From NCBI GenBank assembly GCA_947632575.1, contig CANRPV010000002.1:1-35207 (forward strand): 35,207 bases of DNA, written 5' to 3'. The translations under genes were made by a program, and so were the position numbers. The stretch's first letter is position 1. The number at the start of each line of letters is the position of its first letter. The notes under the pieces are model-generated. The model searched no databases. It was given only the letters and a program-made list of their open reading frames with translations, and had not been told where the DNA came from. Origin of the DNA: an uncultured Eggerthellaceae bacterium (GTDB lineage Bacteria > Actinomycetota > Coriobacteriia > Coriobacteriales > Eggerthellaceae). Below are positions 2,938-28,436 of this stretch, piece by piece.

Positions 2938-4530
2938 ATGACGGACGGTTTTAAGGATAATTCACGTCGTTCCCGGCGCTCTACGCGCCGGGAACCCGTT
3001 AAAACAGCCTCTTCACCTGTGCACGGCTCTCCCGGGCATAGTTCTCCTGCTCATGGACCCTCCGGGCATGGATCTTCTGGCCACGGCTCTCCTGGTCATG
3101 GATCTTCTGGCCACGGCTCTCCCGGGCGCGGTCGCAGTTCTTCCTATCGCAGGCACGCGGAGCAGCTTAAGCGTCCAAATCCCATTGTGCGTTTGGTTAA
3201 CGCCTGGTTTGATCGGGTCATGGGCGCTCTCGGCGATGGCGGTCTTTCCGACCAGGATGCTCAATACGCCTCCCATCGCACGACCCGCGACTTCATTTGG
3301 AACACCGTCGGTGTCGGAGCTTGGGGCATCGTTTTTCCCATTCTCACCATGATCGCCACCCAGTTGGTGGGCGTGGAGCAAGCGGGTATGTTCTCGATGG
3401 CTTTTGTCACGGGCACCCTTCTGATGATTCTCGCCAATTTCGGGGTACGCACCTACCAGGTCTCGGATCTCGAGGAACATTTCTCTTTCAAAGATTACCA
3501 GGTAAATCGTTGGATAACCTGCGTGCTTATGGTGGTCATCGGGGCGATGTACTGCCAGATACGTGGCTATGAGACGGAGATGTTTTATATCAGCATCGGA
3601 GTGTTTCTCTACCGTATGGTCGATGGACTGGCCGATGTGTACGAAGGCCGACTTCAGCAGGTGGATAAGCTTTATCTCGCGGGCATCTCTCAAGCGGTTC
3701 GTTCCATCGCCGCCCTTGTCATATTCGCGATTTTCCTGCTCATCACTCGCAGTGTCATTGTGGCGAGCTTCGCGATGGCCATAGCGGCGGCACTCAGTTT
3801 CGTCGTCTTAACCTATCCGCTTACGCTTTTGGAGACTCCCAAGTCACCTCCGGTACGCTGGGCAAGCGTCTGGGAACTTTTCAAATCGACGGCTCCGCTG
3901 TTTTTCGCTCTCTTCCTCTATGCCCTTATCGACAACATGCCCAAGTTCATCATGGAAGGTGCGCTGTCCTACGACAATCAGCTCTACTTCAACGCGCTCT
4001 ATTTCCCCGCTCAGGGAATTTTGATCACAGCTCAGTTGATCTATAAGCCCCTCCTTGTGCGCCTCGCGGGCGTCTGGCAGGACCAGTCAAAACATCGTCA
4101 GTTTGACATCATCATGATCGGCATGCTGGCCATCATTCTTGGTATCACCCTTCTCAACGTCCTCCTGATGGCCTGGATCGGCATTCCTATCATGAGCTTC
4201 CTCTATGGCATCGATTTCGAGCAATTCCGGTCCATGCTCAACATCATGCTTGCGGCAGGCGGCGTCACGGCGGCAATCGATTTCCTCTATCAGGTGATCA
4301 CCATTATGCGCAGGCAGAAAGACGTCATGGCTCTATACTTCGTGACCTTCGGTTTTTCCCTGTTCGTACCTATCATGTTGGTAACGTTTGCGGGATTGTC
4401 CGGCGCGATTATGAGCTATCTGATAGTAATGACTTTGTTATTGGTGCTGCTCGTGTGGGAGTACTTCCGGATTCGGCATAGTCTTGCCGCGAAACGGGTC
4501 TCGCTGGAGGATATAGAGGAGGATCTATGA
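2938..4530 (+). CDS. Polysaccharide biosynthesis / flippase-like multi-TM protein with low-complexity N-terminus
   Basis: 530 aa with many hydrophobic segments in a Wzx/MATE-like arrangement; N-terminal Ser/Gly/His repeat tract. Stop overlaps the next ATG (ATGA). Confidence 0.75.
   Translation: MTDGFKDNSRRSRRSTRREPVKTASSPVHGSPGHSSPAHGPSGHGSSGHGSPGHGSSGHGSPGRGRSSSYRRHAEQLKRPNPIVRLVNAWFDRVMGALGDGGLSDQDAQYASHRTTRDFIWNTVGVGAWGIVFPILTMIATQLVGVEQAGMFSMAFVTGTLLMILANFGVRTYQVSDLEEHFSFKDYQVNRWITCVLMVVIGAMYCQIRGYETEMFYISIGVFLYRMVDGLADVYEGRLQQVDKLYLAGISQAVRSIAALVIFAIFLLITRSVIVASFAMAIAAALSFVVLTYPLTLLETPKSPPVRWASVWELFKSTAPLFFALFLYALIDNMPKFIMEGALSYDNQLYFNALYFPAQGILITAQLIYKPLLVRLAGVWQDQSKHRQFDIIMIGMLAIILGITLLNVLLMAWIGIPIMSFLYGIDFEQFRSMLNIMLAAGGVTAAIDFLYQVITIMRRQKDVMALYFVTFGFSLFVPIMLVTFAGLSGAIMSYLIVMTLLLVLLVWEYFRIRHSLAAKRVSLEDIEEDL
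3022..3126 (+). repeat. In-frame 15-bp minisatellite encoding HGSPG-type pentapeptides (7 units)
   Basis: Translation HGSPG HSSPA HGPSG HGSSG HGSPG HGSSG HGSPG; catggatcttctggccacggctctcc occurs twice. Confidence 0.9.
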
Positions 4531-5347: not shown

Positions 5348-5447
5348 AGTAACTATCCAACCTGCACTGCCTTTACCTACCTTTGGCGCTTTCAGTCCCA
5401 ACGACCGCCAGGCTAGTAGCTATCCGACCTGCACTGCCTTTACCTGC
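5348..5447. repeat. Imperfect direct repeat, about 33 bp, offset 67 bp, duplicating the 3' end of the minus-strand gene
   Basis: 5348-5380 agtaactatccaacctgcactgcctttacctac versus 5415-5447 agtagctatccgacctgcactgcctttacctgc. Confidence 0.85.
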
Positions 5448-6526
5448 ACGCCAACGGGGAGGTTGTTGCCGGCGGCCTCTGGTCCGAGAACGCCCGTGAT
5501 GATGACATGGGCCCCGATGATGTCGTTCGCTGATATATCGTCGGGCAAGGTAAACGCGATGCTATTGATGTCCCAGGTATTGCCATCCACAATTAGCCGC
5601 AGGTCATCGTCAAAGCGGAGGATGAGATTACCGGCCTGTCCCGAAACAAGCCCACTCAGCTCCACTAAATCACCTACCTTGCAGGTGAGCGTGTAATTCG
5701 GTGTACGCTCATTGATGTGTATATCACTTACGCTGGAAATGGTGGGCACCCAACCGCGGTTCTCTTCCCAGTTTACCAGCAGCGTCACGGTGCAGGTGAG
5801 GAGCCTTCGGCCATCTTCCTTGGAATAATTGGCCGTTATGGTACCTCCCTCGGCGTTTAAGCTGGAGGAGATGCTTGGCGTGATGCCATTGAAGGTGCTC
5901 ACCACCGAACCATAGCTAGTTGAAAGCAGTTCATTGAGGCTTTCGCAGATAGCGGTGGCATTTGGTCCTTGAAGTGGGGTGACCTTCATATCGCCAGTTT
6001 GAATGGGTCCGGGAAGCCAGGTCTCTTGGCCGCTGTCGTAGGTGAAATCGATGCTTACGGGGATCGACGCGGTGAGATCGCCGTTGCGGAAAGTGGCGGT
6101 GGCTGTCGCGGTCTTCGTCTCGGACTGTGCCGCTTGAGCCTCGTCCTCGGCGATCGCGACGTCGGAAAACGTGGGCCCTATGAGATTGGTAGCGTTGACA
6201 TAGCTGTAGGAGGAAAGCTCCGGACGCTCGATGCCGGTTGAATTGAGTACCGATTCCACCCGGTTTGTAGTCAAGGCTACTCGCTGGGTGGGAGCGCCGA
6301 AGCTGGAATGAGTGACTAATGGCACGACCAAAAATACGCCAATGGCAACGAGAGTGCCAAGAAGCACTCCTGCGATAAGGGCTACCGCAATGCCATGACG
6401 GCGATGATGAATTTTTTGGGAACGGGCGGGCGATATAGATCCATAGCCCTCAGTCTGCACTGATTTGACAGGCTTTTTTCTTGGGCCCTGTACCGGGTTG
6501 ACGGTGCGACCGCGTTTCAGATCCAT
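5420..6526 (-). CDS. Hypothetical single-TM protein with basic N-terminus and large extracytoplasmic domain
   Basis: 368 aa; N-terminal basic region then GIAVALIAGVLLGTLVAIGVFLVVPLV TM segment; no confident family recognised. Confidence 0.7.
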   Translation of the reverse strand: MDLKRGRTVNPVQGPRKKPVKSVQTEGYGSISPARSQKIHHRRHGIAVALIAGVLLGTLVAIGVFLVVPLVTHSSFGAPTQRVALTTNRVESVLNSTGIERPELSSYSYVNATNLIGPTFSDVAIAEDEAQAAQSETKTATATATFRNGDLTASIPVSIDFTYDSGQETWLPGPIQTGDMKVTPLQGPNATAICESLNELLSTSYGSVVSTFNGITPSISSSLNAEGGTITANYSKEDGRRLLTCTVTLLVNWEENRGWVPTISSVSDIHINERTPNYTLTCKVGDLVELSGLVSGQAGNLILRFDDDLRLIVDGNTWDINSIAFTLPDDISANDIIGAHVIITGVLGPEAAGNNLPVGVQVKAVQVG

Positions 6527-6649
6527 GGCTGTCCCTTCTGCCGGCTGCGTTTGAAGTGTTGCAGACTGGGAGTACTGACGGATACTCTGCCCATTGTACT
6601 TGGGTTATGGACATTACGCCAGTGAAAGTAGGAACTTCGCGCTACAATA

Positions 6650-6845
6650 GGCGCGTATTGGCATTGATGGTCGTGCGGGCACGCACGAGGCTTAGGCCTT
6701 GGGGAAATGCCGGTGTGAATCCGGCGCAATACCAGTTACCGTAAACGCTGAGAGGCAGTGTAGGGCCAGTGGCCATCCGGGCACGGATGCTGTTTCGGAG
6801 AAGCAAAGTCGGAATACCCGTCCATCGTATCGAGCCCTGGAAAGT
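6650..6845 (+). ncRNA. Cobalamin riboswitch
   Basis: gcgtattggcattgatggtcgtgcgggcacgcacgaggcttagg ... ggggaaatgccggtgtgaatccggcgcaataccagttaccgtaa ... gggccagtggcc matches the cobalamin element core (GGTGTGAATCCGGC, ACCGTAA, GCCAGTGGCC). Immediately upstream of a lipoprotein/ECF operon. Boundaries approximate. Confidence 0.87.
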
Positions 6846-6854
6846 GAGGCCCTT

Positions 6855-7346
6855 ATGGCAAATCTTCATTCGTACCCTTCCTCCTCTTCGCTTAATCGCT
6901 GGTTATCGCGGCTTCTGGCTGTGATGCTTTTGGTTGCAAGCTTTGGACTCGCCGCCGGTTGTAGTCCCGAGCAGGGTGGAACTCCTGAGACCGTTGAACA
7001 GTCTGCGGAGACTCAAAGCGCCGTCGATGCTGAAGAGGCACACTCCATTCAGGTATTCGTGGCGGTAAGCTCCGGCGAGAACACCCCGGCAATCGATGTT
7101 CAGAAGGAAGTCTCACTTGAGGAGAACGCCAACGCCTATGACGCTCTCTTGGCGACGGATCTTCAGATCGATGCACAAGAAAGTTCCTATGGGATCTATG
7201 TGACCGCCATCGAGGGACTTGCCGCTGAAGGCTCGTCAGGCTGGACTTACACGGTAAACGGCGAGACGCCCTCTGTGGGAGCTGATAGCTATAGCCTCAA
7301 GGACGGGGATAACGTTCTTTGGTCCTATACCACCTATGAGGGCTAA
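6855..7346 (+). CDS. Secreted lipoprotein with DUF4430-like (transcobalamin-like) domain
   Basis: Signal peptide with lipobox LAAGC; YGIYVTAIEGLAAEGSSGWTYTVNGETPSVGADSYSLKDGDNVLWSYT is the DUF4430 pattern. Start set at ATG 6855, after the riboswitch, rather than the longer ORF from 6699. Confidence 0.82.
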   Translation: MANLHSYPSSSSLNRWLSRLLAVMLLVASFGLAAGCSPEQGGTPETVEQSAETQSAVDAEEAHSIQVFVAVSSGENTPAIDVQKEVSLEENANAYDALLATDLQIDAQESSYGIYVTAIEGLAAEGSSGWTYTVNGETPSVGADSYSLKDGDNVLWSYTTYEG

Positions 7347-7428
7347 GCCGATTTCGGAATCGGCGATCCTCCAACCTTTTTGGTGCTTGCGCTCTAAGGC
7401 CGCTCACGTGCTCTTACGTGGACTCTAT

Positions 7429-7536
7429 CCTCACGTTGCCGGATTGACTTTCCTTGGGTCACGCTCTCAAGCGGTCGATCTGGCCTTCCTTGAGTCATGT
7501 CCTCAAGTTGCCGGATTGGGCGTCTTTGGATCATGA
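7429..7536 (+). repeat. Degenerate tandem repeat, three 36-bp units, between DUF4430 gene and ecfT
   Basis: 7429 cctcacgttgccggattgactttccttgggtcacgc / 7465 tctcaagcggtcgatctggccttccttgagtcatgt / 7501 cctcaagttgccggattgggcgtctttggatcatga. Confidence 0.8.
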
Positions 7537-8426
7537 GGTATTCCCGTGCTATAAGGCGAAGCTGCGAGCGTCTCCATCCGCTGGTGATACTGATATACGG
7601 GTGTTTGGCGCTCGCGGTCGTTTTGGCGGTTTCAAGCCCGCTTGTTTTGGGTCTGTGCCTTATTGGCGCCCTGATCGTGAGTACAGCGCTCAAGGGCTTT
7701 CGGGTTACCTTGAGTCGCTTGGGTGCCTTTCTCGCATTTGCCTTGGCCATCGCGCTGATTAATGGTCTTTTCTCGTCGAGCGGAGCGACCCTCCTTTGGC
7801 GTTTTGGGCTCTTCTCAGTATCTGTGGAGGGGATCGCCTATGGTTGCTTTGCGGGATTGGTCCTTGTCGCGGTGGCTCTTTGGGGGATGGCGCTCGGGGA
7901 TCTTTTAGATGGTAACCAGATATTTCTGCTCATGGGTTCGCGCTTTCCTCGCATAAGCCTCATGATCGCCCTATCCCTTCGCCTTTTGCCACTTATGGTG
8001 CGCAGGGGAAAACTGATCGGAGAATCGCTTGGCGCCTGCAGTGCCGCCAATCGATCTGCCCAAACGAAAGTTCAAGGACCGTTCCGACAAATCTCTACGC
8101 TTATGGCCTGGTCAATGGAAAACACTCTCATTGCGGGAGAGACGATGCGCGCTCGATCTTGGGGGCGCATCGAGCGAGGGGGACGCCGCACGAATTACCG
8201 TAGCCGCCGTCTCAGCTCTTTTGACTGGATGGCTTTAGGGATCCTGGGCCTGCTTACGGCTTGGTTCATCATTTCTCTTGCGAGCGGTGGCTCCCGGGCG
8301 CTCGCGTTTGGTTTTTATCCTCACATGAGCAGCCTTGAGTTTTCATGGAGTCTTGTTCCTCTCGCACTCTTTTATCTCTTACCTGGCCTTTTGTTCGGAT
8401 GGGAGCTTTGCCATTGTCCGCGCTAG
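7533..8426 (+). CDS. ecfT: ECF transporter transmembrane component (EcfT/CbiQ family)
   Basis: Multi-TM protein with typical C-terminal ECF-T region (SLRLLPLMVRRGKLIGESLGA ... MENTLIAGETMRARSWG). Start could be ATG 7497 or 7533. Confidence 0.85.
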   Translation: MRYSRAIRRSCERLHPLVILIYGCLALAVVLAVSSPLVLGLCLIGALIVSTALKGFRVTLSRLGAFLAFALAIALINGLFSSSGATLLWRFGLFSVSVEGIAYGCFAGLVLVAVALWGMALGDLLDGNQIFLLMGSRFPRISLMIALSLRLLPLMVRRGKLIGESLGACSAANRSAQTKVQGPFRQISTLMAWSMENTLIAGETMRARSWGRIERGGRRTNYRSRRLSSFDWMALGILGLLTAWFIISLASGGSRALAFGFYPHMSSLEFSWSLVPLALFYLLPGLLFGWELCHCPR

Positions 8427-9988
8427 CCTATGAACACTTTTGCTTTCGCTATCCGGAGTCACCTTCTTGGGTGCTCGATTCGGTGAGCTTTTCGGTACCG
8501 GAGGGTTCATTTTGCCTTTTGACTGGTGCGACAGGCTCCGGAAAGACGACGCTTTTGCGGTCTGCTTGTCCGCAGCTGGCTCCTCATGGCTCACGGGAGG
8601 GAAAGATCCGACTCTTTAACGATCAGGTGGGCTTAGAGGCGTCGATGGCCTTGGGGACTTCAGTGGGTTTAGAGTCATCGATGGCCTTGGGGACTTCAGT
8701 GGGCTTTGTGGGGCAGGAGATAGAAGGTCAGATTCTGTCAGATGATGTTCAAGCGGAAATGGCATTTGGGATGGAGAATGAGGGTCTTCCTCGGGAGATC
8801 ATGGTTCGTCGTATTGCCGAGCTCTCGCAGTTTTTCGCTATGGAGTCTTGGCTTCATGTCCCTACCGCTGAGCTATCAGGAGGGCAGAAGGCGCTTCTCA
8901 ACCTTGTTTCGGTTCTGGCCATGGCGCCTCGGCTCCTGCTTCTCGATGAGCCTACTGCGGAGCTAGATCCCGTCGCGCGTACCAATTTCGTTCATGGACT
9001 GTTTCGGGTGAAGAACGATTTTGGTATAACCATCGTCGTAGCCACACACGAGCCGGAGGTATTCGCCGACTACGCTGATCTTCTCTTTGAGCTGAGGGAC
9101 CATTCAGTCCAAAGTCGCTCGCTGGAAGAGTTGAGACGGCACGCCCATAAGCCACTTATCCTGGAGACGTTTGAACAAGAGTCACCAAACCGAAGCTTGT
9201 TTGACGAAGAAGTGCATGGCAAAAAGCGGCGCTCTGATGATGCTGTCCCATTGAGCTCGGCACTTTCGCTCAAAGACGTCTTTTTCGCTTATCCCGATGG
9301 GGAAGATGATGTGCTTAAAGGGCTTTCTCTTAACGTCGCTTGTGGGAAGATCCATGCCATTGTGGGAGGTAACGGAGGCGGGAAGACGACGCTTCTGCGG
9401 CTTATGGCTAAAATCGCCAAGCCCGGGCGTGGAAAGGTCGTCAATAACCTGACTGATAACCAGTGTTATCTTCCGCAAGATCCCGAGGCGCTCTTTGTCT
9501 GCGATTCGGTGGAAGAGGAGCTTTTCGAATGGAGCGTCAAACCGCTGTCGGACATTTTGAGGGCGGCATCCCGCGAAGAGTCTTCGTTTCTTGAACCGTG
9601 GCTTGATGGGAACCTGCGGAAACGGCACCCCTTTGACCTCAGCAAAGGCGAGCGGCAAAAACTTGCGCTTGCCAAGCTTCTTACCGCCTCTCCTCAGCTG
9701 CTCTTTATGGATGAGCCGACGAAAAGTCTTGATAGCGTCGGGAAGGCCTTGGTGGGCAGACTGATGCGATCTCTTGCCGATCGAGGCATGACAATCGTGA
9801 TGGCAAGTCATGATTTGTCGTTTGTGGCCTGCGTGGCCGATCGGATTAGCCTCCTTTTCGACGGACAAATCGCCGTGACGCAGGCGCCTGAGGAGTTTTG
9901 TCGTGAGGCTCTCTTCTACCGACCTTATGAAGACGGTTTTACCAAGATTTGGAGCGAAGCTCATGAAGATGGCTTCAAAAAGATCTGA
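8399..9988 (+). CDS. ECF transporter ATPase, two fused ABC domains (EcfA-EcfA')
   Basis: Two Walker A motifs ([22 protein letters not shown]), two signature motifs (LSGGQKALLNL, LSKGERQKLALAKL), two Walker B (LLLLDEPTAELDP, LLFMDEPTKSLD). Confidence 0.9.
   Translation: MGALPLSALAYEHFCFRYPESPSWVLDSVSFSVPEGSFCLLTGATGSGKTTLLRSACPQLAPHGSREGKIRLFNDQVGLEASMALGTSVGLESSMALGTSVGFVGQEIEGQILSDDVQAEMAFGMENEGLPREIMVRRIAELSQFFAMESWLHVPTAELSGGQKALLNLVSVLAMAPRLLLLDEPTAELDPVARTNFVHGLFRVKNDFGITIVVATHEPEVFADYADLLFELRDHSVQSRSLEELRRHAHKPLILETFEQESPNRSLFDEEVHGKKRRSDDAVPLSSALSLKDVFFAYPDGEDDVLKGLSLNVACGKIHAIVGGNGGGKTTLLRLMAKIAKPGRGKVVNNLTDNQCYLPQDPEALFVCDSVEEELFEWSVKPLSDILRAASREESSFLEPWLDGNLRKRHPFDLSKGERQKLALAKLLTASPQLLFMDEPTKSLDSVGKALVGRLMRSLADRGMTIVMASHDLSFVACVADRISLLFDGQIAVTQAPEEFCREALFYRPYEDGFTKIWSEAHEDGFKKI
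8630..8701 (+). repeat. In-frame 36-bp tandem duplication within the first ABC domain
   Basis: GLEASMALGTSV GLESSMALGTSV; nucleotide copies nearly identical. Confidence 0.9.
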
Positions 9989-10057
9989 AGCGAATAGGCG
10001 GTTCGTATAAAGATTGGGAATACGTACGTGCTAGCTTCGTGGTGTTGGGGTGCCTAG

Positions 10058-10759
10058 ATGCCGTTTCGACTAAAATATGAATGGCTTTGGGAGCTGCTGA
10101 TTCTCATCAGCGTGCCCGTCGCATTATGGGCATGCGCGGTCTATCACCTGGCTTCTTCTGCGCTCATCACGCTTTTAGTCTGTATAGCCGCTTTGATCAT
10201 CTTCTTCTTGGGCTACGAGGCTTCTCGACCCGCTTTAGGACAAATGCTTCCTACGGTGGTCCTAGGCACCCTCGCCGCGCTTGGCAGGCTGCTCTTTGCG
10301 GCATTTCCCAGCTTTAAACCAGTGAGCGCGATCTGTCTGATTGCGGGAGCGTTATTTGGACGCCGTAGCGGTTTTATGGTGGGTGCCCTCGGCGCACTTA
10401 TCTCCAATTTCTTTCTCGGACAGGGCCCTTGGACACCATGGCAGATGTATGCATGGGGGCTCATTGGCTATCTTGCCGGTCTGCTCGCTCAGAAAGATCT
10501 CTTTCGTCACCAGTGGGTGCTCTATGGTTACGGTTTCGCGAGTGCGTTTCTGTTCGGTTTCCTTTTAGACTGCTGGACACTGGTAGCCTTCGTGCAGCCG
10601 ATAACGCTGGCTGCTGTGATCACGGTCTTCGGTGGAAGCTTTCTCTTCAACCTCACGCATGGAGTGGCAACCGTTGTCTTTTTGCTCATTCTTTATGGGC
10701 CTTGGAGAAAAAAGCTCCAGCGGATAATCAAGAAATACCAGCTTATTGAGACGTCATAG
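10058..10759 (+). CDS. ECF transporter S component, probably cobalamin/corrinoid-specific
   Basis: Hydrophobic protein with LGRLLFAAFPSFKPVSAICLIAGALFGRRSGFMVGALGALISNFFLGQGPWTPWQMYAWGLIGYLAG, typical of an ECF S component; specificity inferred from riboswitch and neighbours. Confidence 0.83.
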   Translation: MPFRLKYEWLWELLILISVPVALWACAVYHLASSALITLLVCIAALIIFFLGYEASRPALGQMLPTVVLGTLAALGRLLFAAFPSFKPVSAICLIAGALFGRRSGFMVGALGALISNFFLGQGPWTPWQMYAWGLIGYLAGLLAQKDLFRHQWVLYGYGFASAFLFGFLLDCWTLVAFVQPITLAAVITVFGGSFLFNLTHGVATVVFLLILYGPWRKKLQRIIKKYQLIETS

Positions 10760-11099
10760 GTTTTAACGTCAAGAGTGGTTAATCCGCCGATGCGTTTGAT
10801 GTTCAGTCAGTTTTTGCACTTACTAAAGATGACCTGTTTACCGTCCCAATTCAAATCACGAACCTATTCTAAATGGGGGACACTTCCTTTGATTTTGGGA
10901 GCTATCTTCCTCTGCTATGCATTTATGCCCATGAAAGCCACTTATCGGTGATTTTGCCCGCTGTCAAGCAATAAAAAGAGCTTCAAGAAAGACATATCAC
11001 CTTGTCAGAGCACGTTTTTAATAAGATTTTTGAGGACGTTTTGAGACGGTGCTAATGTAAACGTTTCCGAGTAGTTTTCTTTTATGCTGCATAATTCCA

Positions 11100-11327: not shown

Positions 11328-11642
11328 TTAGAACGGGAAGCCGCGGATATTATAACCACCGTAGGATAATGGGTCTGGTACCGCCGAATACCACATAAAG
11401 TCTGGTGACCCAGATTTGATCCAGAAGTTCCTCGCCGCCATCTGCGCATCGCCTACGCCCCTTGAGCGCAGATAATCATCCATCGACATACCGTTGCCCT
11501 CGGCTGCATAGTCACGCTGGATATCATTTTCCATGGTGATGTCCCAGTCGATGCCCAAGTAGAACCCTCCGCCATTCACGTGAGCGAGTTCGTCATCGGA
11601 GAGCTTCTGCGGCTCGTTGATGTTCTTCTTGCTCTCGGACAC
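11328..11642 (-). CDS. Putative double-glycine-leader (bacteriocin/RiPP-like) precursor peptide
   Basis: 104 aa, GTG start with AAAGGAA SD; leader EPQKLSDDELAHVNGG|G resembles bacteriocin-type GG leaders (LSDDEL..VNGG); core has no Cys and is rich in Trp/Tyr/Asp. Confidence 0.7.
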   Translation of the reverse strand: MSESKKNINEPQKLSDDELAHVNGGGFYLGIDWDITMENDIQRDYAAEGNGMSMDDYLRSRGVGDAQMAARNFWIKSGSPDFMWYSAVPDPLSYGGYNIRGFPF

Positions 11643-12281: not shown

Positions 12282-12356
12282 GGTGGTCGGAGAGGGATTT
12301 GAACCCCCGACCTTGTGCTTGTAAGGCACCTGCGCTCCCGCTGCGCCATCCGACCA
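12282..12356 (-). tRNA. tRNA-Val (anticodon TAC)
   Basis: Reverse complement GGTCGGATGGCGCAGCGGGAGCGCAGGTGCCTTACAAGCACAAGGTCGGGGGTTCAAATCCCTCTCCGACCACCA; acceptor GGTCGGA/TCCGACC, T-arm GGTTCAAATCC, anticodon loop CTTACAA, encoded CCA. Confidence 0.9.
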
Positions 12357-12556: not shown

Positions 12557-15139
12557 GTGTCCAAGCTTGAAGCCGATAGTAAAAAACACGCAGAAACGAT
12601 TATGAACGCGGGAGATAAGAATGCACTAGACGTGCCGGACAACATCAAAATTCGAGGCGGTCGCGTGCATAACCTGAAGAACATCGACGTTGACATACCG
12701 CTTCACAAAATTGTGGGAATTGCAGGAGTTTCCGGCTCCGGGAAATCCTCGCTAGCGCTGGGTATTCTGTACGCGGAGGGTTCTCGTCGATATCTGGAGT
12801 CCCTTTCCACTTATACGCGGCGAAGAATGACTCAGGCAGAAAAGGCCCAGGTAGATGAGGTGCTCTATGTTCCGGCCGCTCTTGCGCTTCGCCAAAGACC
12901 CGGTGTCCCCGGCATTCGCAGCACCTTCGGCACGGGGACGGAACTGCTGAACAGTCTGCGTCTGATGTATTCGAGACTCGCCAGCCACCGCTGTCCGAAT
13001 GGCCATTACGTCGAGCCATCTCTCAATGTGGCAGCCGGCCTTCCTTTGCAATGCTCTGTCTGTGGAGAGAGCTTCTTCGCGCCAGGAGCGGAAGAACTGG
13101 CCTTTAACAGCCAAGGTGCTTGCAAAAAATGTGATGGTACGGGCATCGTCCGCATCGTGGACGAATCGACGTTGGTGCCGGATGAATCCCTTTCCATCGA
13201 CGAAGGCGCGGTCGCACCGTGGCAGACGCTGATGTGGTCTTTGATGAAGGATATCGCTCGCGAAATGGGCGTGCGTACCGATGTGCCGTTCCGCGATTTG
13301 ACCGAAAAAGAGCGGGATATCGTGTTTCATGGACCTGCCGTCAAGAAAAACATCATCTATCAGAACAAAACCAGCGGTGCCGCCGGCGATATGGATTTCA
13401 CCTACTTCAACGCCACCTATACCGTGGAAAACGCCCTTTCCAAAGTGAAGGACGAAAAGGGTATGAAGCGAGTGGAGAAATTCCTGCGGCAGGATGTTTG
13501 TCCTGATTGCGGTGGAACACGGCTCAGCGACGCGGCACGTGCTCCGCGGCTTCGGGGCATTTCACTGGCGCGGGCTTGCACCATGACGCTCTCCGATCTT
13601 ATGGAGTGGGTTGCTGGTGTTCCGGACTCTCTTCCTGAAGCGATGCGTCCCATGGCACAAAGCATCTGCGAGTCGTTTCAAAGCGCCGCCAAGCGTCTGA
13701 TTGACCTGGGGCTTTCCTATCTTACTTTGGATCGCGCCGCCTCTACGCTCTCTACGGGTGAGCGACAACGTATGCAACTAGCTCGTGCGGTGCGCAACCG
13801 TACCACTGGCGTTCTCTATGTTCTTGACGAACCTTCCATCGGTCTGCATCCGTCAAATCTCGAGGGACTCACCGGTGTGATGCATGATCTGGTGGCCGAT
13901 GGCAACTCGGTCGTGCTCGTGGATCACGATACTCACGTGCTTTCTGAGGCGGAGTGGCTCATTGAGCTGGGGCCGAAGGCTGGTGCAGATGGAGGCAGGA
14001 TAATCGCGCAAGGGCCAATTGCTCAGGTGGAGAACGATCCGATCTCGCGTATTGGTGATTTCCTGACAGGAAGAGCGACTATCCACAGCGGAAGACATAT
14101 CCCTACTGAGCAGATGTTTTCCCTCGGAACCATTCATCTGTCCACTTCGGAAATCCACACGGTAAAGCCACTGGAGGTGGACTTTCCGAAAGGGAGGCTG
14201 ATCGCGGTGACCGGCGTATCCGGTTCCGGAAAGACGACCATGGTCTTGGAGAGCCTTATCCCGGCCCTAGAAGCCACTATTCGAGGTAGTCAACTTCCAG
14301 ACCACGTAAAAGCCATCTCCGCCGACGGGATAGTACAGGTCAAGCTGATCGATGCCACGCCTATCGGTATTAACGTGCGATCCACGGTCGCCACTTATGC
14401 GGACATTCATGATGAACTGCGCAAAGTTTACGCAAAAACGGCAGATGCGAAGCAGCGAGGCTATAAAGCCGGCGATTTTTCCTACAACACCGGGAAGCTG
14501 AGGTGTCCCACCTGCGATGGCACGGGCACCATCAATCTCGATGTTCAGTTTTTGCCTGACGTGGAGATTCCCTGTCCTGATTGCGGAGGTTCCCGCTACG
14601 CGAAAGAGGCCAGTTTGATCTGGCGTGTGCCAAAAGAGGTAGGTAAGGCGACCACCCTTCCGGAACTCATGGATATGAGCATCGACGAGGCCCTCGTGGC
14701 GTGCGCTGATCTTTCGATCGTGGCGCGGCGACTCAGCGTCTTAAAGGAGCTCGGCCTTGGATATCTGTCGTTGGGAGAGGAGACACCGAGTCTTTCCGGT
14801 GGAGAGGCTCAGCGACTGAAGCTTGCCAGCGAGATGGGGCGTGGGCAAGCCGATACGGTATTCGTATTCGATGAGCCCACCATCGGTCTTCACCCGTTAG
14901 ATGTGGAGTCGCTTCTTCATGTATTCGAGCGCCTGATCGAACATGGGGCAACGGTTATCGTTATCGAACATGATTTGGACGTGATTAAAAACGCCGATTA
15001 TGTGATCGATATGGGTCCGGATGGCGGTATCCAAGGTGGACGAATCGTCGCGGCGGGCACGCCGGAGGAGATTTGCAAATCCAAGCAAAGCAAAACAGGG
15101 GCCTATCTTGCGCGCTCTATTGCAAAAGAGCAAAGATAA
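12557..15139 (+). CDS. UvrA paralog (class II/UvrA2-like), lacking the UvrB-binding domain
   Basis: 860 aa with GVSGSGKSSLALGILYAEGSRRYLESLSTYTRRR, LSTGERQRMQLARAV, GVSGSGKTTMVLESL, LSGGEAQRLKLASEMG, Zn-binding CxxC motifs. Start GTG 12557 or a downstream ATG. Confidence 0.88.
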   Translation: MSKLEADSKKHAETIMNAGDKNALDVPDNIKIRGGRVHNLKNIDVDIPLHKIVGIAGVSGSGKSSLALGILYAEGSRRYLESLSTYTRRRMTQAEKAQVDEVLYVPAALALRQRPGVPGIRSTFGTGTELLNSLRLMYSRLASHRCPNGHYVEPSLNVAAGLPLQCSVCGESFFAPGAEELAFNSQGACKKCDGTGIVRIVDESTLVPDESLSIDEGAVAPWQTLMWSLMKDIAREMGVRTDVPFRDLTEKERDIVFHGPAVKKNIIYQNKTSGAAGDMDFTYFNATYTVENALSKVKDEKGMKRVEKFLRQDVCPDCGGTRLSDAARAPRLRGISLARACTMTLSDLMEWVAGVPDSLPEAMRPMAQSICESFQSAAKRLIDLGLSYLTLDRAASTLSTGERQRMQLARAVRNRTTGVLYVLDEPSIGLHPSNLEGLTGVMHDLVADGNSVVLVDHDTHVLSEAEWLIELGPKAGADGGRIIAQGPIAQVENDPISRIGDFLTGRATIHSGRHIPTEQMFSLGTIHLSTSEIHTVKPLEVDFPKGRLIAVTGVSGSGKTTMVLESLIPALEATIRGSQLPDHVKAISADGIVQVKLIDATPIGINVRSTVATYADIHDELRKVYAKTADAKQRGYKAGDFSYNTGKLRCPTCDGTGTINLDVQFLPDVEIPCPDCGGSRYAKEASLIWRVPKEVGKATTLPELMDMSIDEALVACADLSIVARRLSVLKELGLGYLSLGEETPSLSGGEAQRLKLASEMGRGQADTVFVFDEPTIGLHPLDVESLLHVFERLIEHGATVIVIEHDLDVIKNADYVIDMGPDGGIQGGRIVAAGTPEEICKSKQSKTGAYLARSIAKEQR

Positions 15140-15349: not shown

Positions 15350-15403
15350 AATTTGCCTAGGTTCAAGTCCATTATTCGTCGTCAGACGAAGGACGGAGAG
15401 CCG

Positions 15404-16072
15404 ATGGGGCAAAAGAAATCAGTCATACTCGGGCTTCTGTGCGCGGTGCTTTGCGCGCTCTTTGTAACACTTTTTCTGGCTGATGTTGGGGCTCAGCAGG
15501 ACAGTCTCAGGGCTGAAGCGCTTGAGCGCTACGGCGGAGACCAGATTGAGGTTTATGTGGCAAAGCGTGATATAGCCGCCGGCGAAGCACTGAATCTTTC
15601 ATCCATTGAGCGACGTCTTTGGGTAGCGGATTTACTGCCTGCTCACCCAGTAACCACTCTTGAGGAAGTGGAAGGCCACACTATCCAATCGAGCATCCTT
15701 AAAGGTGAGGTGATTTCTGGTGATCGCTTGGGCTCTCCCGATTCCGTTCTTGACGTCCCATCGGGGATGAGCGCTGTCAGTGTTCCCGCTCGGGATGTGC
15801 AAGCTCTTGGTGGAGCTCTAAAAAGCGGTATGAAGGCCGATGTTTACGCTACAGGAGCTAGCGGAACAACACTTTTGGTTCAAGGAGCACAGGTGTTAGC
15901 TACGAGCAACGAAAAAGAAGAACTCTGGGGGACAGACAGTGTTTCTTGGATCACCCTCGCGGTTAAACCCGAACGAGTGCAAGAACTGGTGACCGCGGCC
16001 CATAATCTTGAGCTCTATTTTACTCTTCCGGTTGCCAAAGCAACTCCGACGGAAGCAGAGGTCAAATCATGA
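15404..16072 (+). CDS. cpaB: Tad/Flp pilus assembly protein CpaB (RcpC, SAF domain)
   Basis: N-terminal TM then IEVYVAKRDIAAGEALNLSSIERRLWVADLLP ... ILKGEVISGDRL ... VPSGMSAVSVPARDVQALGGALKSGMKADVYAT. Start ATG 15404 has better SD than 15353. Confidence 0.85.
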   Translation: MGQKKSVILGLLCAVLCALFVTLFLADVGAQQDSLRAEALERYGGDQIEVYVAKRDIAAGEALNLSSIERRLWVADLLPAHPVTTLEEVEGHTIQSSILKGEVISGDRLGSPDSVLDVPSGMSAVSVPARDVQALGGALKSGMKADVYATGASGTTLLVQGAQVLATSNEKEELWGTDSVSWITLAVKPERVQELVTAAHNLELYFTLPVAKATPTEAEVKS

Positions 16073-17340
16073 AAAAAGTGGTGCTTTGCGCGGATCAAGA
16101 ATGCCTCTCTAACCCTGCACTTCTTGGTCTTGAGGGCGAAAAGCTTGATAGTTATCCTTGGCTCGTACTTTTCTCGGATGGGGTCAAAGCTCGTTTCGAA
16201 CTTGCCAGATCAAATGAAGATATTGATGAGGTTTGGGTCGTTTCTAGCGATAATCTTGATGCTCTCAATCTTGCCGCCGGCATCAAAAAAGACAATCCAC
16301 AGCAAAAGATCTACCTTGTTACTGATAACACGTCCGGTTCTTTACTCAGTCGCGCTAAGTCGGCTGGTATCACGGCTGCGCTCTCTCAGGTGGCATTTGT
16401 TAAGCGCTTTGGGCTAGCGAAAAGTCGTACCGCTACATCGCCAGGTGAAAATTCATCTACAGACAGCAAGGCTAAAGCCCAGGCATTCGTTTTGGTAGTC
16501 GCTAGCGGTAGTGGTGGCGCAGGCAAATCAACGATAACTGCGATGAGCGCTCTTCTTGCTGTCAGTCGAGGTCTTAAGACTCTCGTAATTGATGCAGATC
16601 TACAGTTTGGTGATCTGGCAGGATTATTAGGACGGTCAAAACCCTTGACAGCAGAAGCGGCGATAGTCACCGATAAAGAGGGCGAAAATCCTGATCTTTT
16701 TTATGAGCAGCCAAGTCTGATCGTTCCAGGAACGAAACTTTTAGACCAAGAATTCTTCTCCCAAAGACTCTCAAGCCTGATAAAGAAATATCAATCACAG
16801 TTCGACCTGATCATAGTAAACACGGCTTCAGGTTGGAATGAGAGCCATGCGACTCTTATCGAGCTCTGTTCTAAAACTCTTCTTCTGATCGATCAGCGCG
16901 CCTCTTCAATTCATGCGACTGTCCGGGTATTAGAAATATGTGAGCAGTGCGGCATCCCATGCTCATCATTTCTTTTCGTACTTAATCACTGCAGTAAAGC
17001 GGCTCCTCTTAGCTCTATCGATGTCTCCTGCGCCCTTAAGGGCGCTCATGTCATAGAACTTCGCGAAGGAGGCTTTCAAGTTGAGGAGTGTATGGGATGC
17101 GGACGTGCGTCTGAGCTAATTAAAACCGCCCCGGACTTCTGTTTAAGCATTGGTTCAATGCTTGATGAGCTGCTTCCGCCGTCTTTGGCTGAGAATACTC
17201 AATTACCGAAAATGCATCGGTCTTTCCGAAGGTGGTTCCAAGGGTCTAAGACTGAAAAACCCTCGAAGGGCTCATCAAAACTTCTGACTCATGTTTTTGA
17301 AGACAAACAGCCCAGAACTGTCGGTGGTGATGCCCGATGA
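16069..17340 (+). CDS. tadZ: Tad pilus assembly ATPase TadZ/CpaE-like
   Basis: ASGSGGAGKSTITAMSALLAVSRGLKTLVIDADLQFGDLAGLLG deviant Walker A ParA/MinD family; receiver-like N-terminus; ATGA overlap with cpaB. Confidence 0.85.
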   Translation: MKKVVLCADQECLSNPALLGLEGEKLDSYPWLVLFSDGVKARFELARSNEDIDEVWVVSSDNLDALNLAAGIKKDNPQQKIYLVTDNTSGSLLSRAKSAGITAALSQVAFVKRFGLAKSRTATSPGENSSTDSKAKAQAFVLVVASGSGGAGKSTITAMSALLAVSRGLKTLVIDADLQFGDLAGLLGRSKPLTAEAAIVTDKEGENPDLFYEQPSLIVPGTKLLDQEFFSQRLSSLIKKYQSQFDLIIVNTASGWNESHATLIELCSKTLLLIDQRASSIHATVRVLEICEQCGIPCSSFLFVLNHCSKAAPLSSIDVSCALKGAHVIELREGGFQVEECMGCGRASELIKTAPDFCLSIGSMLDELLPPSLAENTQLPKMHRSFRRWFQGSKTEKPSKGSSKLLTHVFEDKQPRTVGGDAR

Positions 17341-18785
17341 GCCTGGCCCTGAGAGCTCAACAAGCCGAGTCGAAAGCAAGTTCGTTTGATGAGCCTCTTT
17401 CCCCGATGACGCTTAGCGATTTACGGCGTCTCGTTAAAAAACAGATTGCTTTTGAGGATTTAGCGGTTATCGCACGAGAAAATCCCTTACGTGCGCGTAA
17501 TGAGCTGCGTGCTGCCTGCCGCCAAGTACTGAGTTTCGTGGATAACCGTCAATTCCAATCAGGCGATAAAGAGCGCTTAACTGAGGCGTTAATCGACATC
17601 GTTTTTGGCTGGGGTCCCCTAGACACATTGCTGAAAGACGAAAGCATTACCGAAATCATGGTCAATGGGACCCAAAGTATTTTTTACGAGAGCCATGGTT
17701 GTCTTTACAAGAGTGACCTTTCCTTTGAGAGCGATGATCAGATTCGACTTTTGATAGATCGTATTATCGGGCCACTCGGCCGAAGGATCGACGAGTCATC
17801 ACCAATGGTCAATGCGCGCCTACCTGAAGGACATAGAGTTAACGCTATCATTCCTCCACTCGCCCTTGATGGTCCCATCCTGACTATTCGTCTCTTCCCT
17901 CATCAGAGATTAAGTCTCCAGGATCTTTATGAGAAGGGAACGTGCGATCGAGAGGTGGCTCAGTTTCTTTTCTGGGCAGTGAACACTCGGAAGAATCTCG
18001 CTGTTTCGGGAGCAACGGGTAGCGGGAAAACTACGCTGCTTAACGCGTTATCCGATGGTATTCCTAGAGACGAGCGTTTGATAACCATCGAAGATGCTGC
18101 AGAACTTCGCTTAAGGGATCATCCCCACGTGGTCCGTTTAGAGGCACGGCCTCCAAACGCCGAGGGCAAAGGCGAAGTAACCATTCGAGAGCTTGTCATC
18201 AATGCTCTCCGTATGAGACCCGATCGAATCATTGTGGGCGAGTGCCGTGGAGCTGAGGCGTTCGACATGCTTCAGGCTATGACCACCGGTCATGCGGGAT
18301 CTCTGACAACTCTTCACGCGGATGCTCCTGAAGAGGCAATCGGGCGTTTGGTGTCAATGGTGCGCTATGCCGTCGATTTGCCCCTTGATGCTATTGAGGC
18401 CCAAATTGCGAGTGCTTTCGACTACATCGTTCAAATAGAACGAAGTAAACAAGGTGATCGATTTATCTCAAGAATTGCTGAGCTGCGCTTTGATCAGGAA
18501 AAACGTCGATGTTTAACGGAGATGATCTATAGCAAAGGTCAAGACTGCGAAGCGGGCACATGGCATAAAGATCTTCCGTTTCCTCGTGAACTCCCGAAGG
18601 AACACGTTGAGAAGACAAAGGAGGTTCACCTTTGGACACAAACTTGCTCTGGTCAGGAGCCGCCATCGGATTCGGAGGAATGTCGGGTTATGCCTTTGGG
18701 AAAGCACTGTCACGGATATCAGCAGCCCCCAAGCTCTCGCAAAGTGTTCAAGAACGATTCCATCAAAGTCGTTTCGACTGGTTAA
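17337..18785 (+). CDS. tadA: Tad pilus assembly ATPase TadA/CpaF
   Basis: [102 protein letters not shown]. Confidence 0.93.
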
Positions 18786-19606
18786 TTCGAAATGGCATCC
18801 GGTTTCTTAAAATTCCTGCTCGCTATCTTTTGCGGATTCGCTTTATCCGGAACAGTGTAAACGCTCTTTTGACCATTCTTCGCAATCACAAGGTATTCAG
18901 TTCAGAAGAATCTCTTTTATCTTTATCCCTCGGCCTGCTCTCGATCGTGGCTCTGACCACGTGGTTCTTTTCGTCGTCGCTGATCTGTGCTTTGAGTCTT
19001 TGTCTTCTTCTCGTTTCTGCTGTGGTGGTATCGATACAAAATCTTTCTGAGCGGGAGGGGCGTAAGGTGAAAGAATCTATGCCTGATGCTTTGCGCACTA
19101 TGACTATCTGTTTTCAGGCGGGTCTTTCACTTCAGCAAACAATGGCCATCATCGCGAAAGAAGTATCCGGTGTCATCGGGCGGCGGTTTAGTCAAGCGGC
19201 TATGGCTCTTGAAGCAGGGGCATCGATATCAGAGGGACTAGATTGTCTTAAAAGTACAGAGAGCAATGATGGGTTGTCATTTATTGCTGTTGCCCTGGAT
19301 ATTCAGCACTTAAGCGGAGGAAGTTTAGAAAAGGTATTAAAGGCATCCCAGGAGACGCTTGAGAGTGAAATAAGACTGGAGAGATCGCTTAAAGCGCAAA
19401 CTGCGCAAGCAAAATTCTCCGCTCAAATTGTGACATTGATGCCCTTTATCCTCATCGCCCTTTTTTCGTTACTCAGTCCTCATTTTATCGAGAGTTTTTT
19501 CTCAAGCACTGCGGGGATTCTGTTGCTTGTCTGCGCCTTGGGCCTTCAAGCTTGCGGAGTCTTTTGGATACGTCGCCTTCTCCAAGAGGGAGGCCAAAGA
19601 TTATGA
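18632..19606 (+). CDS. tadB: Tad pilus inner-membrane protein TadB (T2SS F family)
   Basis: PDALRTMTICFQAGLSLQQTMAIIAKEVSG ... VALDIQHLSGGSLEKVLKASQETLESEIRLERSLKAQTAQAKFSAQIVTLMP. AAAGGAGG SD 7 nt before TTG 18632. Confidence 0.88.
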   Translation: MDTNLLWSGAAIGFGGMSGYAFGKALSRISAAPKLSQSVQERFHQSRFDWLIRNGIRFLKIPARYLLRIRFIRNSVNALLTILRNHKVFSSEESLLSLSLGLLSIVALTTWFFSSSLICALSLCLLLVSAVVVSIQNLSEREGRKVKESMPDALRTMTICFQAGLSLQQTMAIIAKEVSGVIGRRFSQAAMALEAGASISEGLDCLKSTESNDGLSFIAVALDIQHLSGGSLEKVLKASQETLESEIRLERSLKAQTAQAKFSAQIVTLMPFILIALFSLLSPHFIESFFSSTAGILLLVCALGLQACGVFWIRRLLQEGGQRL

Positions 19607-20571
19607 ATGGGCTTAATCTGTACGCCTATTTGGCGATAACGGCAAGCGGAGGCTTGGGCTATTTTGGGTACAAGCTTGTTTTCGGGGCACTGAACCTTAA
19701 ACGCTACAAACGTGCTGTACTCGCGCAAAATGGGTTTCAAAGTTCACGGTCATCGCAAGATTCAACTTCAAATAATAAATCCTGGGATATCCTTATATCT
19801 TTCCTGAGGCGGGAGACATTACGTTATAGGCAAGCCCACGTCCATCTCGCACTAACTCATGCCGATGACCGTTCTCGTCATTCTAAAGAGATGCCTCTTT
19901 GGCTGCAGACCGCTCTTCAGACAGCAGGTTTGAAGGATCTCATTAGCTATGAAGGTCTCAATCGCCTACGTTGTAAATTGAGCGTCCTCTTTGGCCTGGG
20001 CGGCTTTCTACTGGGCTTTTGCTTTTCTGGAGAGCTGGCATTTCTTTTAGGACTTGTTGCGGCTGTCTTGGGCTTTAGGATGCCCCGTCGAGTACTCAAA
20101 GAGCTAAGTCTTGGAAGAAAACGTGAATTAGAGACTCAACTCCCTGAAATGCTCGACATCGTCGCTCTTGGTCTATCGAGTGGTCTATCCTTTGATCGCA
20201 GCCTGCAGACCTATTGCGATCATTTCGGAAGTTCGTTATCTCAAGACATTCGGAGTTACCTGAACCAATGGGGACGAGGCCTCGTATCAAGAGATGAGGC
20301 TTTGAAGGAATTAGCCGCGAGCTATGATTCGCGCAGTCTGAGCCGCATCGTGGATAACATCATCCGTTCTCTTCAGTTTGGATCATCACTCGCCGAAAGT
20401 CTTTCATGCTCAGCACGCGACGCAAGAGAGGCTCGTCAGATGAGCCAACAGGAGATCATCGCCAAAATTCCCGTAAAGATTATGGTTCCTACGTGCACAT
20501 TGATTTTACCCGCCATGCTCTTACTTGTTCTTGGGCCAATCATGCTCGATCTCGGGGAAGGTTTTTCATGA
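19603..20571 (+). CDS. tadC: Tad pilus inner-membrane protein TadC (T2SS F family)
   Basis: ETQLPEMLDIVALGLSSGLSFDRSLQTYCDHFG ... KIPVKIMVPTCTLILPAMLLLVLGPIMLDL; ATGA overlap with tadB. Confidence 0.88.
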   Translation: MNGLNLYAYLAITASGGLGYFGYKLVFGALNLKRYKRAVLAQNGFQSSRSSQDSTSNNKSWDILISFLRRETLRYRQAHVHLALTHADDRSRHSKEMPLWLQTALQTAGLKDLISYEGLNRLRCKLSVLFGLGGFLLGFCFSGELAFLLGLVAAVLGFRMPRRVLKELSLGRKRELETQLPEMLDIVALGLSSGLSFDRSLQTYCDHFGSSLSQDIRSYLNQWGRGLVSRDEALKELAASYDSRSLSRIVDNIIRSLQFGSSLAESLSCSARDAREARQMSQQEIIAKIPVKIMVPTCTLILPAMLLLVLGPIMLDLGEGFS

Positions 20572-25868: not shown

Positions 25869-27446
25869 CTATGCGAGAAACTCGACGACGGCGTTTTCGA
25901 TATCCGCTACGGTTCCACCAATGACCTGATCGAAGCGACGAGGAAGCTTGTCGAGCAGATCGAGGTTTGGAGGAATGGGACTTGCCTGGGTCTCTTCGGC
26001 CACGAGACGAATGAGCTGATTGCCAGTCAGTTCGCTCAGAGCCGGTGATAAGGGCTCGTCGGTGCCGATGCCATGAAGTGCCTTATAGACGCTGGCGCCG
26101 AATTTAGCCCAATGAGCAGTGGACACGATCAAGAGCGGATTCGTTCCCCGAAGATTCTGGCTAACCCGATAGGCTACGGAGGTATGGGGGTCTATCAGAT
26201 AATGATGATCTTCCCAGACCTCTTTGATGGTGTCCAAGCATTCTTGGTTTGTGGCAAACCCGCCAACAAAGGTGTCGCACATACGGCGATGAGTTTGCTC
26301 ATCGATTTGGAAGAAACGGTCCTTGTTAAGGCCATTCATCCAGTTGCGAATGCACTGGCTATCGCGATCGGTCAATTCGAAAAGCAATCTTTCGAGATTG
26401 GAGGAGACAAGGATGTCCATGGAAGGACTGTGAGTCAGTATGAACTCGCGCTCGCGGATATCATAGATACCCGTATTGATGAAGTCGGTCAGCACATGGT
26501 TATCGTTGCTCGCGCAGATAAGCCTTTCGATGGGTGCGCCCATGGCTTTCGCATACCAGGCAGCAAGGATATTGCCAAAGTTTCCCGTGGGCACGCATAC
26601 ATCCAATGGCGCGCCGGCTTCAAGTTTTCCTTCTGCCACTAGCCTTGAGTAGCTCGACAGATAGTAGACGATCTGAGGCATAAGACGTCCCCAGTTGATG
26701 GAGTTCGCGCTGGAAAGCTTAATGCGATGCTCGTCGAGAAGGCGTTCCGTGAAAGCATCGTCGGTAAATGTCTTTTTGACATTGGTTTGGCAGTCATCGA
26801 AATTGCCCTCTACGGCCCAAACGGAGACATTGTCGCCCTGTTGGGTAGACATTTGCAGGCACTGGATGTCGCTCACTCCATTATGGGGATAGCAAACGCC
26901 GATCTGCACCCCGTCGAGATCCTTGAACCCTTCGAGAGCCGCTTTGCCGGTGTCGCCGGAAGTAGCGACCAAGATGAAGAAGTCGTTTTCGATCTTGCCT
27001 TCTGCCTTAAGCTTTGCCGCGCTTGCGGTGAAGAACTGGGGAAGGCATTGGAGTGCGAGATCTTTAAAAGCGCTGGTGGGACCATGCCATAGTTCGAGCA
27101 CATGAGTGTCGTCATCAAGCGTGGTTATGGGGCAGATAGCAGGCGTGTCGAAGTTTGAACCATAGCTTTTCGCCATCAGGTTTTCTATGGCATCGGCGTC
27201 AAAATCGATGCCGAAGCTCTTATAGACGAAACTTGCCTGTTGGTAATAGGGCATTGACGCGAGTTCGAGGATTTGGCTCAGGCTGTAATGAGGGATTTCT
27301 TGAGGAACAAACAAACCGCCGCCCGAAGCGATGCCTTCAATGATGGCCTCAGAAAAGGGCAGAGGCGCTTCGCATCGACCTCGTGTGTCGAGGTATCTAT
27401 TGGTTCCGCGGTCAAAGAGCTTCGAGTTTGCGTTCAGTTCCGCCAT
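25869..27446 (-). CDS. thrC: Threonine synthase
   Basis: MAELNANSKLFDRGTNRYLDTRGRCEAPLPFSEAIIEGIASGGGLFVP ... HGPTSAFKDLALQ ... SGDTGKAALEGF ... GNFGNILAAWYAKAMG. ggagga SD upstream of ATG at 27446; ORF extends 5' without biological start. Confidence 0.93.
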   Translation of the reverse strand: MAELNANSKLFDRGTNRYLDTRGRCEAPLPFSEAIIEGIASGGGLFVPQEIPHYSLSQILELASMPYYQQASFVYKSFGIDFDADAIENLMAKSYGSNFDTPAICPITTLDDDTHVLELWHGPTSAFKDLALQCLPQFFTASAAKLKAEGKIENDFFILVATSGDTGKAALEGFKDLDGVQIGVCYPHNGVSDIQCLQMSTQQGDNVSVWAVEGNFDDCQTNVKKTFTDDAFTERLLDEHRIKLSSANSINWGRLMPQIVYYLSSYSRLVAEGKLEAGAPLDVCVPTGNFGNILAAWYAKAMGAPIERLICASNDNHVLTDFINTGIYDIREREFILTHSPSMDILVSSNLERLLFELTDRDSQCIRNWMNGLNKDRFFQIDEQTHRRMCDTFVGGFATNQECLDTIKEVWEDHHYLIDPHTSVAYRVSQNLRGTNPLLIVSTAHWAKFGASVYKALHGIGTDEPLSPALSELTGNQLIRLVAEETQASPIPPNLDLLDKLPRRFDQVIGGTVADIENAVVEFLA

Positions 27447-27521
27447 GAGTTTTCGTCCTCCTTCGTACAAGTAAGACCAGTATACTATGGCTGGCGCGTA
27501 AACCGCTGTTAGGAGATGCTC

Positions 27522-28436
27522 ATGTCCGGGCCTGCAATTTCCATCATGGGGGACTCGATTTCCACGTTCGAGGGCCAAAATCCCGAGGGCTATCGTGTCT
27601 ATTATGCGGAGGAACTTCGCGATTTTACCGGGGTCGTCGAGGTGGAGGATACATGGTGGTCCCAGGTCATTAGTCATTTCGGAGGCCATCTTTGCACCAA
27701 TGCCTCCTTTTCTGGGAGTATGGTCGAAGGTCTTGGTTTTCCCGCGGGAAATAGCGAGCGTCGAGTGGCTGATCTCAAAAATTCCTCTGGCGAAAATCCC
27801 GATGCCATTCTTATTTTCATGGGCATTAACGATTTTGGCTGGGGCGGAGCGAAAAACCAAGCAGCCGGTCGTAGTGAAGCTGTTCCTCCCTGTGTCGATC
27901 TCAGCCTCATACCTGAAGCCGATCCCGGCGAAGCCCATGCGGAGGCGCTTGAGGGATTTGCCCGCGCTTATCGACAAATGCTTGAGCGCTTGAGAAGCCA
28001 TTATCCCGATACGGAAATCTGGCCCATCACGTTGGTTCCTGGAAGAATTGTCGGCAAGGATCATTCGGCGTTTACCTATCAGCTTCGCAGTCTCGAGCTT
28101 GATTCCTATAACGACGCCATACGCCAGGCCGCTAAAGAAACTGGATGTCGGGTAGCCGATATATTCAAGCTGGGGCTTGAATACGAGGCAAAGGATGGAA
28201 CCCATCCAACTGGCAAGGGGATGGCTCAGCTGGCATCAATGATCATTCAGTGCCTTGAAGCTGACGGCTTTCTTTCGCGGTACGCCTCCGTTAGGCACCA
28301 TGAGCCTGAACGGGAAAAGGCGCTTAAAGCAACAAGATATTGTTATCAGCCGAGCTGCGTTCCCTGCTCTTTTGCTCAAAGCACCAGCTCCAAATGGAGT
28401 TGCGTCTGCGAAAAGCCCTGGTTAGAGCAAAGTTAA
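27522..28436 (+). CDS. SGNH/GDSL-family hydrolase
   Basis: ISIMGDSISTFEG block I, ILIFMGINDFGWGG block III, DGTHPTGKGMAQLA block V. aggag SD 6 nt before ATG 27522. Confidence 0.82.
   Translation: MSGPAISIMGDSISTFEGQNPEGYRVYYAEELRDFTGVVEVEDTWWSQVISHFGGHLCTNASFSGSMVEGLGFPAGNSERRVADLKNSSGENPDAILIFMGINDFGWGGAKNQAAGRSEAVPPCVDLSLIPEADPGEAHAEALEGFARAYRQMLERLRSHYPDTEIWPITLVPGRIVGKDHSAFTYQLRSLELDSYNDAIRQAAKETGCRVADIFKLGLEYEAKDGTHPTGKGMAQLASMIIQCLEADGFLSRYASVRHHEPEREKALKATRYCYQPSCVPCSFAQSTSSKWSCVCEKPWLEQS

Follow-up and report, generated by a model that had tools for sequence, protein, structure and literature searches.

Can an energy-coupling factor (ECF) transporter work with a binding protein on the outside of the cell? 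This question is raised by a four-gene operon from an uncultured Eggerthellaceae bacterium (assembly GCA_947632575.1). The operon lies within positions 1 to 35,207 of contig CANRPV010000002.1; we call this whole stretch of 35,207 nucleotides the window. The four genes are all on the + strand, and behind a structured leader they encode, in order, a DUF4430 lipoprotein, the coupling protein EcfT, a double ATPase, and an S component. A previous interpretation (the sequence-only reading) had described this gene set with a cobalamin riboswitch in front of it and had proposed that the lipoprotein captures corrinoids for the transporter. We confirmed the gene set and the riboswitch. Computational evidence also establishes the identities of the genes, the fold of the lipoprotein, and the conservation of the gene order. 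We think it likely that this is a corrinoid-repressed import operon that combines an ECF transporter of the CbrTUV type with a corrinoid-binding lipoprotein similar to the β domain of transcobalamin, because the S component is CbrT-like, because the order DUF4430, EcfT, double ATPase, S component (DUF4430-T-AA-S) is conserved, and because a known CbrVUT operon has DUF4430 nearby.

The leader contains a cobalamin riboswitch

At Rfam's gathering thresholds, we found no match to a cobalamin riboswitch in the whole window. In a relaxed Rfam scan, RF00174 aligns from end to end with 6651-6840 (+ strand) at 24.5 bits, which is under its gathering score of 31.5. This is the sole match to RF00174 with E ≤ 0.001 (E = 1.9e-4) in the host's genome (1.48 Mb in 189 contigs, 86% complete). 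We also built a covariance model from the leaders of ten relatives, with the window excluded; nine of these are operon leaders and the tenth, L105, is from another contig. Within the window, the relatives' model has a single match, to 6642-6853 (107.3 bits, E = 5e-31). Because a model that was built without the window gives such a score, we conclude that the riboswitch is real and that it belongs to a subclass, of a Coriobacteriia type, that RF00174 scores poorly. We considered whether the missing gathering-level match refutes the riboswitch and rejected this, as the relatives' model shows it to be a matter of subclass.

The window and the relatives share an invariant core (GGTG..AATCC, ACCAGT.ACCGTAA, AGTCGGAA.ACC, and GCCCTGGA). 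This core is intact in the window, and many genera keep it at this operon. Furthermore, RF00174 has matches in 22 of the 33 genomes with a related S component, and by their coordinates, 17 of these 22 matches are upstream of the operon and on the same strand (the identity of the contig was confirmed for 14 of the 17). In two relatives, this part of the leader passes the threshold of a related model, RF01482.

The end of the leader is the likely expression platform (6834-6849, + strand). In all ten relatives, GCCCTGGA is directly before the ribosome-binding region, and in the window, GCCCTGG adjoins a Shine-Dalgarno-like GTGAGG that ends five bases before the ATG of the lipoprotein gene. The CTGG of GCCCTGGA (within GCCCTGG) is complementary to the CCAG of the invariant ACCAGT loop. 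Both GCCCTGG and CCAG are invariant across the ten aligned relatives, so this pairing has no support from covariation. A loop-loop contact and control of translation occur in other cobalamin riboswitches. The arrangement of CTGG and CCAG is consistent with both, and we infer that this leader may form a kissing loop and control translation. A scan of 6500-10900 found no sigma-70-like promoter. We also considered an attenuator hairpin just 3' of the lipoprotein gene (7347-7364) and rejected it, as it folds no better than shuffled sequences (z = -0.24) and is absent from the list of the terminator scan.

The lipoprotein has the predicted fold of the transcobalamin β domain

The first gene (6855-7346, + strand) encodes a protein of 163 amino acids with a signal peptide and the lipobox LAAGC, whose cysteine is Cys36 (6960-6962). 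As the sequence-only reading had it, this is a DUF4430 lipoprotein: residues 105-159 (7167-7331, + strand) match PF14478, with 62.9 bits (the curated cut-off is 23.8) and E = 3.9e-17. An AlphaFold model from 45 sequences (predicted local distance difference test, or pLDDT, of 86.9) has the transcobalamin-β fold. The best match among structures in the PDB is 5no0, the isolated β domain of human transcobalamin without ligand (E = 7.6e-08, template modelling score of 0.83 for the target, root-mean-square deviation of 1.8 Å), followed by 5np4, which is the transcobalamin β domain with cyanocobalamin, and then by whole transcobalamin, haptocorrin, and intrinsic factor. The similarity is weakly visible in direct comparisons of sequence as well: when we searched PDB sequences with phmmer, human transcobalamin-1 was the top match (E = 0.0012).

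In the alignment to transcobalamin-1, Tyr112 and Tyr115 of the lipoprotein correspond to Trp359 and Tyr362 of haptocorrin (numbering from PMC4350170). The two haptocorrin residues are in the β domain, and a stabilising effect on bound corrinoids has been ascribed to them (PMC4350170). Position 115 is tyrosine or phenylalanine in all 45 sequences of the lipoprotein family, and position 112 is tyrosine or phenylalanine in 27 of the 37 sequences that have a residue there.

Compared to the β domains of transcobalamin, haptocorrin, and intrinsic factor (5no0, 5np4, and 4kki), the window's protein is bacterial and lipid-anchored and has only the β domain; the α/α-barrel domain that completes the B12 site is absent. 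However, the isolated β domain of human transcobalamin co-crystallises with cyanocobalamin and with cobinamide in the absence of the α domain (PMC5599065), so it is plausible that a lone β domain binds corrinoids.

The transporter is related to CbrTUV

The sequence-only reading was also correct about the other three genes. EcfT (7497-8426, + strand) has no match in scans of Pfam or NCBIfam, but its family profile matches solved EcfT chains (5d3m_D at E = 4.3e-13), and we consider it to be CbrV-like. By homology, its true start is probably the ATG at 7533. All four genes do have one orientation, as had been claimed, but the gap between the lipoprotein gene and EcfT (150-190 bp) is larger than the "small gaps" that had been described. 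The CbrU-like ATPase (8345-9988, + strand) matches PF00005 and has two complete nucleotide-binding sites in a single chain, with two Walker A motifs, two Walker B motifs, two H-loops, and the signature motifs LSGGQK and LSKGER. Its likely start at 8399 overlaps EcfT. The first half of the ATPase also contains a 36-bp tandem repeat (2.2 copies, 8627-8706), so that a GLEASMALGTSV-like peptide is repeated ahead of the Q-loop region.

The S component (10058-10759, + strand) matches PF07155 and PF12822 above their cut-offs. When its profile was compared to the PDB, the best match was 6fnp_A, from ECF-CbrT (E = 1e-14), and the next was 4hzu_S (E = 0.07). The model of the S component has the fold of such proteins, but its Foldseek matches were S components in general, all at weak E-values, so the assignment to CbrT rests on sequence profiles. 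EcfT and the duplicated ATPase are encoded in the same operon as the S component, and all four reading frames are intact. The host's genome has another EcfT, of the CbiQ type, on contig 15; we found no FecCD/BtuC permease of the BtuCDF type in this genome.

CbrTUV is an established group of predicted or proven ECF transporters for B12 (PMC6593275, PMC8123684, PMC5997447); the prediction was made by Rodionov et al. 2009, as cited in PMC5997447. In Lactobacillus delbrueckii, ECF-CbrT has been shown to import both cobalamin and a precursor of it, cobinamide (Santos et al. 2018, PMC5997447; PMC6593275). The operon in the window is similar to these systems in its CbrT-related S component, its dedicated EcfT and fused double ATPase, and its cobalamin context. 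It differs from L. delbrueckii, where CbrT uses a shared, general ECF module (group II), in that its module is dedicated; in addition, two further helices are predicted in an N-terminal extension of its S component, and the lipoprotein gene precedes EcfT.

The lipoprotein gene is usually found next to the transporter

We retrieved 80 loci by their S components. In 67 of these, EcfT was present with at least 600 bases before it, so that the slot upstream of EcfT could be tested. A DUF4430 gene is immediately upstream of EcfT in 60 of the 67 testable relatives, which are from Coriobacteriia and Clostridia, and the order is DUF4430-T-AA-S. The prediction for the lipoprotein is thus a widespread one. 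Latilactobacillus curvatus has an LPXTG protein, DUF4430, T, AA, and S, in that order. The operon on plasmid pMF1298-5 of Lactiplantibacillus plantarum has been described as CbrV, CbrU, and CbrT (PMC6722938); there, DUF4430 is encoded two genes downstream of the S component, with cobS in the vicinity.

The pairing of this lipoprotein with a cobalamin ECF transporter is real and widespread, and it is already recorded in annotation databases. The gene rtpR encodes a B12-dependent ribonucleotide reductase. A list of proteins from Lacticaseibacillus rhamnosus proteomics includes an "additional lipoprotein component of putative cobalamin ECF transporter" (PMC9963975), so annotation pipelines already make this link; as in the window, a lipoprotein is assigned to a cobalamin ECF transporter, but in L. 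rhamnosus the name is by annotation only. The same study names a DUF4430 protein, LGG_02295, that adjoins rtpR, and we read the two entries as the same protein. The proposal of an ECF importer with its own lipoprotein is partly supported, as all of the suggested computational checks that could be run agree with it (the riboswitch, PF14478, the transcobalamin-β fold, the CbrT-like S component, and the conserved gene order), but given this annotation and the known CbrTUV group, the concept is not new. A search of the open-access literature turned up no experiments on the lipoprotein.

Two observations weigh against our explanation of the operon. First, DUF4430 is missing upstream of EcfT in 7 of the 67 testable relatives, so the operon does not strictly depend on the lipoprotein. 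Second, some DUF4430 proteins, in Collinsella, are not adjacent to an ECF transporter. The strongest alternative is that the operon does import corrinoids, but that the lipoprotein is a structural or regulatory partner or binds something else (for instance, a metal or the cell wall), is merely carried along in the operon, and captures nothing for the S component. Besides the operons that lack the gene, the description of L. delbrueckii ECF-CbrT without a lipoprotein (PMC5997447, where that word is absent) would fit with this, as would the label of "putative metal binding protein" for a solved bacterial DUF4430-like structure (3u7z). Yet the folds closest to the lipoprotein are β domains that bind B12, human transcobalamin-1 is its top match among PDB sequences, the aromatic positions are conserved, and its gene is the first one under a B12 riboswitch. 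We consider a role other than capture to be quite unlikely.

In 22 loci, there is a second and much longer DUF4430 protein further upstream. We inspected three long upstream proteins, which are putatively wall-anchored (L014:1292-3652, L004:1808-4039, and L016:37-3597). Two of the three have matches to toroids similar to prenyltransferases or squalene cyclases, and the other has a near-threshold match to DUF4430 along with a β-propeller. The C-termini of some of the long proteins resemble sortase-type anchors. The combination of a toroid and DUF4430 in these relatives resembles the layout of whole transcobalamin. The window does not have the long form: the lipoprotein, a short form, is the only match to DUF4430 in the host's genome.

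Two loci have a different lipoprotein in the slot before EcfT (L010:3733-4596 and L013:2109-2939). The one from L010 has no match to DUF4430 in Pfam, and the link between these proteins and the DUF4430 lipoprotein family by profile comparison is weak (25.8% probability). An AdoCbl-II riboswitch matches at the 5' end of the L010 lipoprotein (3792-3911).

A proposed mechanism for corrinoid capture and import

If the operon is indeed for corrinoid import, then when cobalamin is scarce inside the cell, the leader RNA would keep the first gene's ribosome-binding site accessible. The cell would then make the lipid-anchored DUF4430 protein together with the dedicated EcfT, the fused double ATPase, and the CbrT-like S component. 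At the outer face of the membrane, the lipoprotein probably binds corrinoids with one face of its β domain and would thereby raise the local supply of corrinoids to the S component, which would topple together with its substrate as the ATPases act. For comparison, BtuG and BtuH of Bacteroidetes also capture B12 at the cell surface on behalf of an importer (PMC8941943), but they belong to outer-membrane systems, and PMC8941943 does not mention DUF4430.

A more specific proposal is that the corrinoid is clamped between the lone β-domain lipoprotein and the CbrT-like S component, the latter standing in for transcobalamin's α domain. We regard the clamp as rather doubtful. If it were true, then carrier and importer would form a two-part system, and the ECF transporter would have a working extracellular binding partner. 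More broadly, if the lipoprotein binds corrinoids, then Gram-positive gut bacteria compete for B12 by means of a protein related to the human B12 carrier, and ECF transporters can use an external binding protein, as classical ABC (ATP-binding cassette) importers do.

Does the host use corrinoids?

The contents of the host's genome also count against corrinoid import. In this 86% complete genome, searches for B12 users were all negative (PF02310, NrdJ or TIGR02504, QueG or TIGR00276, and EutB), and we did not find a cobalamin adenosyltransferase of either the PduO type or the BtuR type. A sub-threshold match to PF02607 (B12-binding_2) was discarded because it is in a ClpX-like protein. Because the genome is incomplete, some B12 users may be missing from the data. 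Either the B12 users are in the missing part of the genome, or they belong to other families, or the imported corrinoid is used differently.

Alternatively, heme or some other tetrapyrrole or cofactor might be the substrate, with the riboswitch being a leftover or sensing corrinoid as a cue. Staphylococcus lugdunensis does have an ECF transporter for heme (PMC7299338), and the lack of detected B12 users would be explained. However, CbrT is the only solved S component with which the one in the window groups, and a leftover riboswitch is hard to reconcile with a core that is intact here and conserved at this operon across genera, so we think that import of heme or the like is very improbable. 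Similarly, the lack of a detectable B12-dependent enzyme or adenosyltransferase might suggest that the genes are a relic in a lineage that lost B12-dependent metabolism, but with four intact frames, all of the ATPase motifs, an intact riboswitch core, and an incomplete genome, this is hardly credible. Corrinoid import remains our preferred explanation for the operon.

Other features of the window

Upstream of the operon is a divergent gene (5420-6526, - strand), and an intergenic region begins at 10760. Beyond it, a small protein (11328-11642, - strand) has a start, LSDDELAHVNGGG, that resembles the leader of a double-glycine bacteriocin or of a ribosomally synthesized and post-translationally modified peptide (RiPP). 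A UvrA-like protein with a GTG start (12557-15139) is near a tRNA gene (12284-12355, - strand). The region from 15353 to 20571 is a possible Flp/Tad pilus locus, with an RcpC/CpaB-like protein followed by a ParA/CbiA-type ATPase and further co-directional genes. Finally, the gene at 25869-28205 (- strand) encodes a threonine synthase domain from about residue 270 onwards; the roughly 270 residues that precede it are in frame, so the protein may be a fusion.

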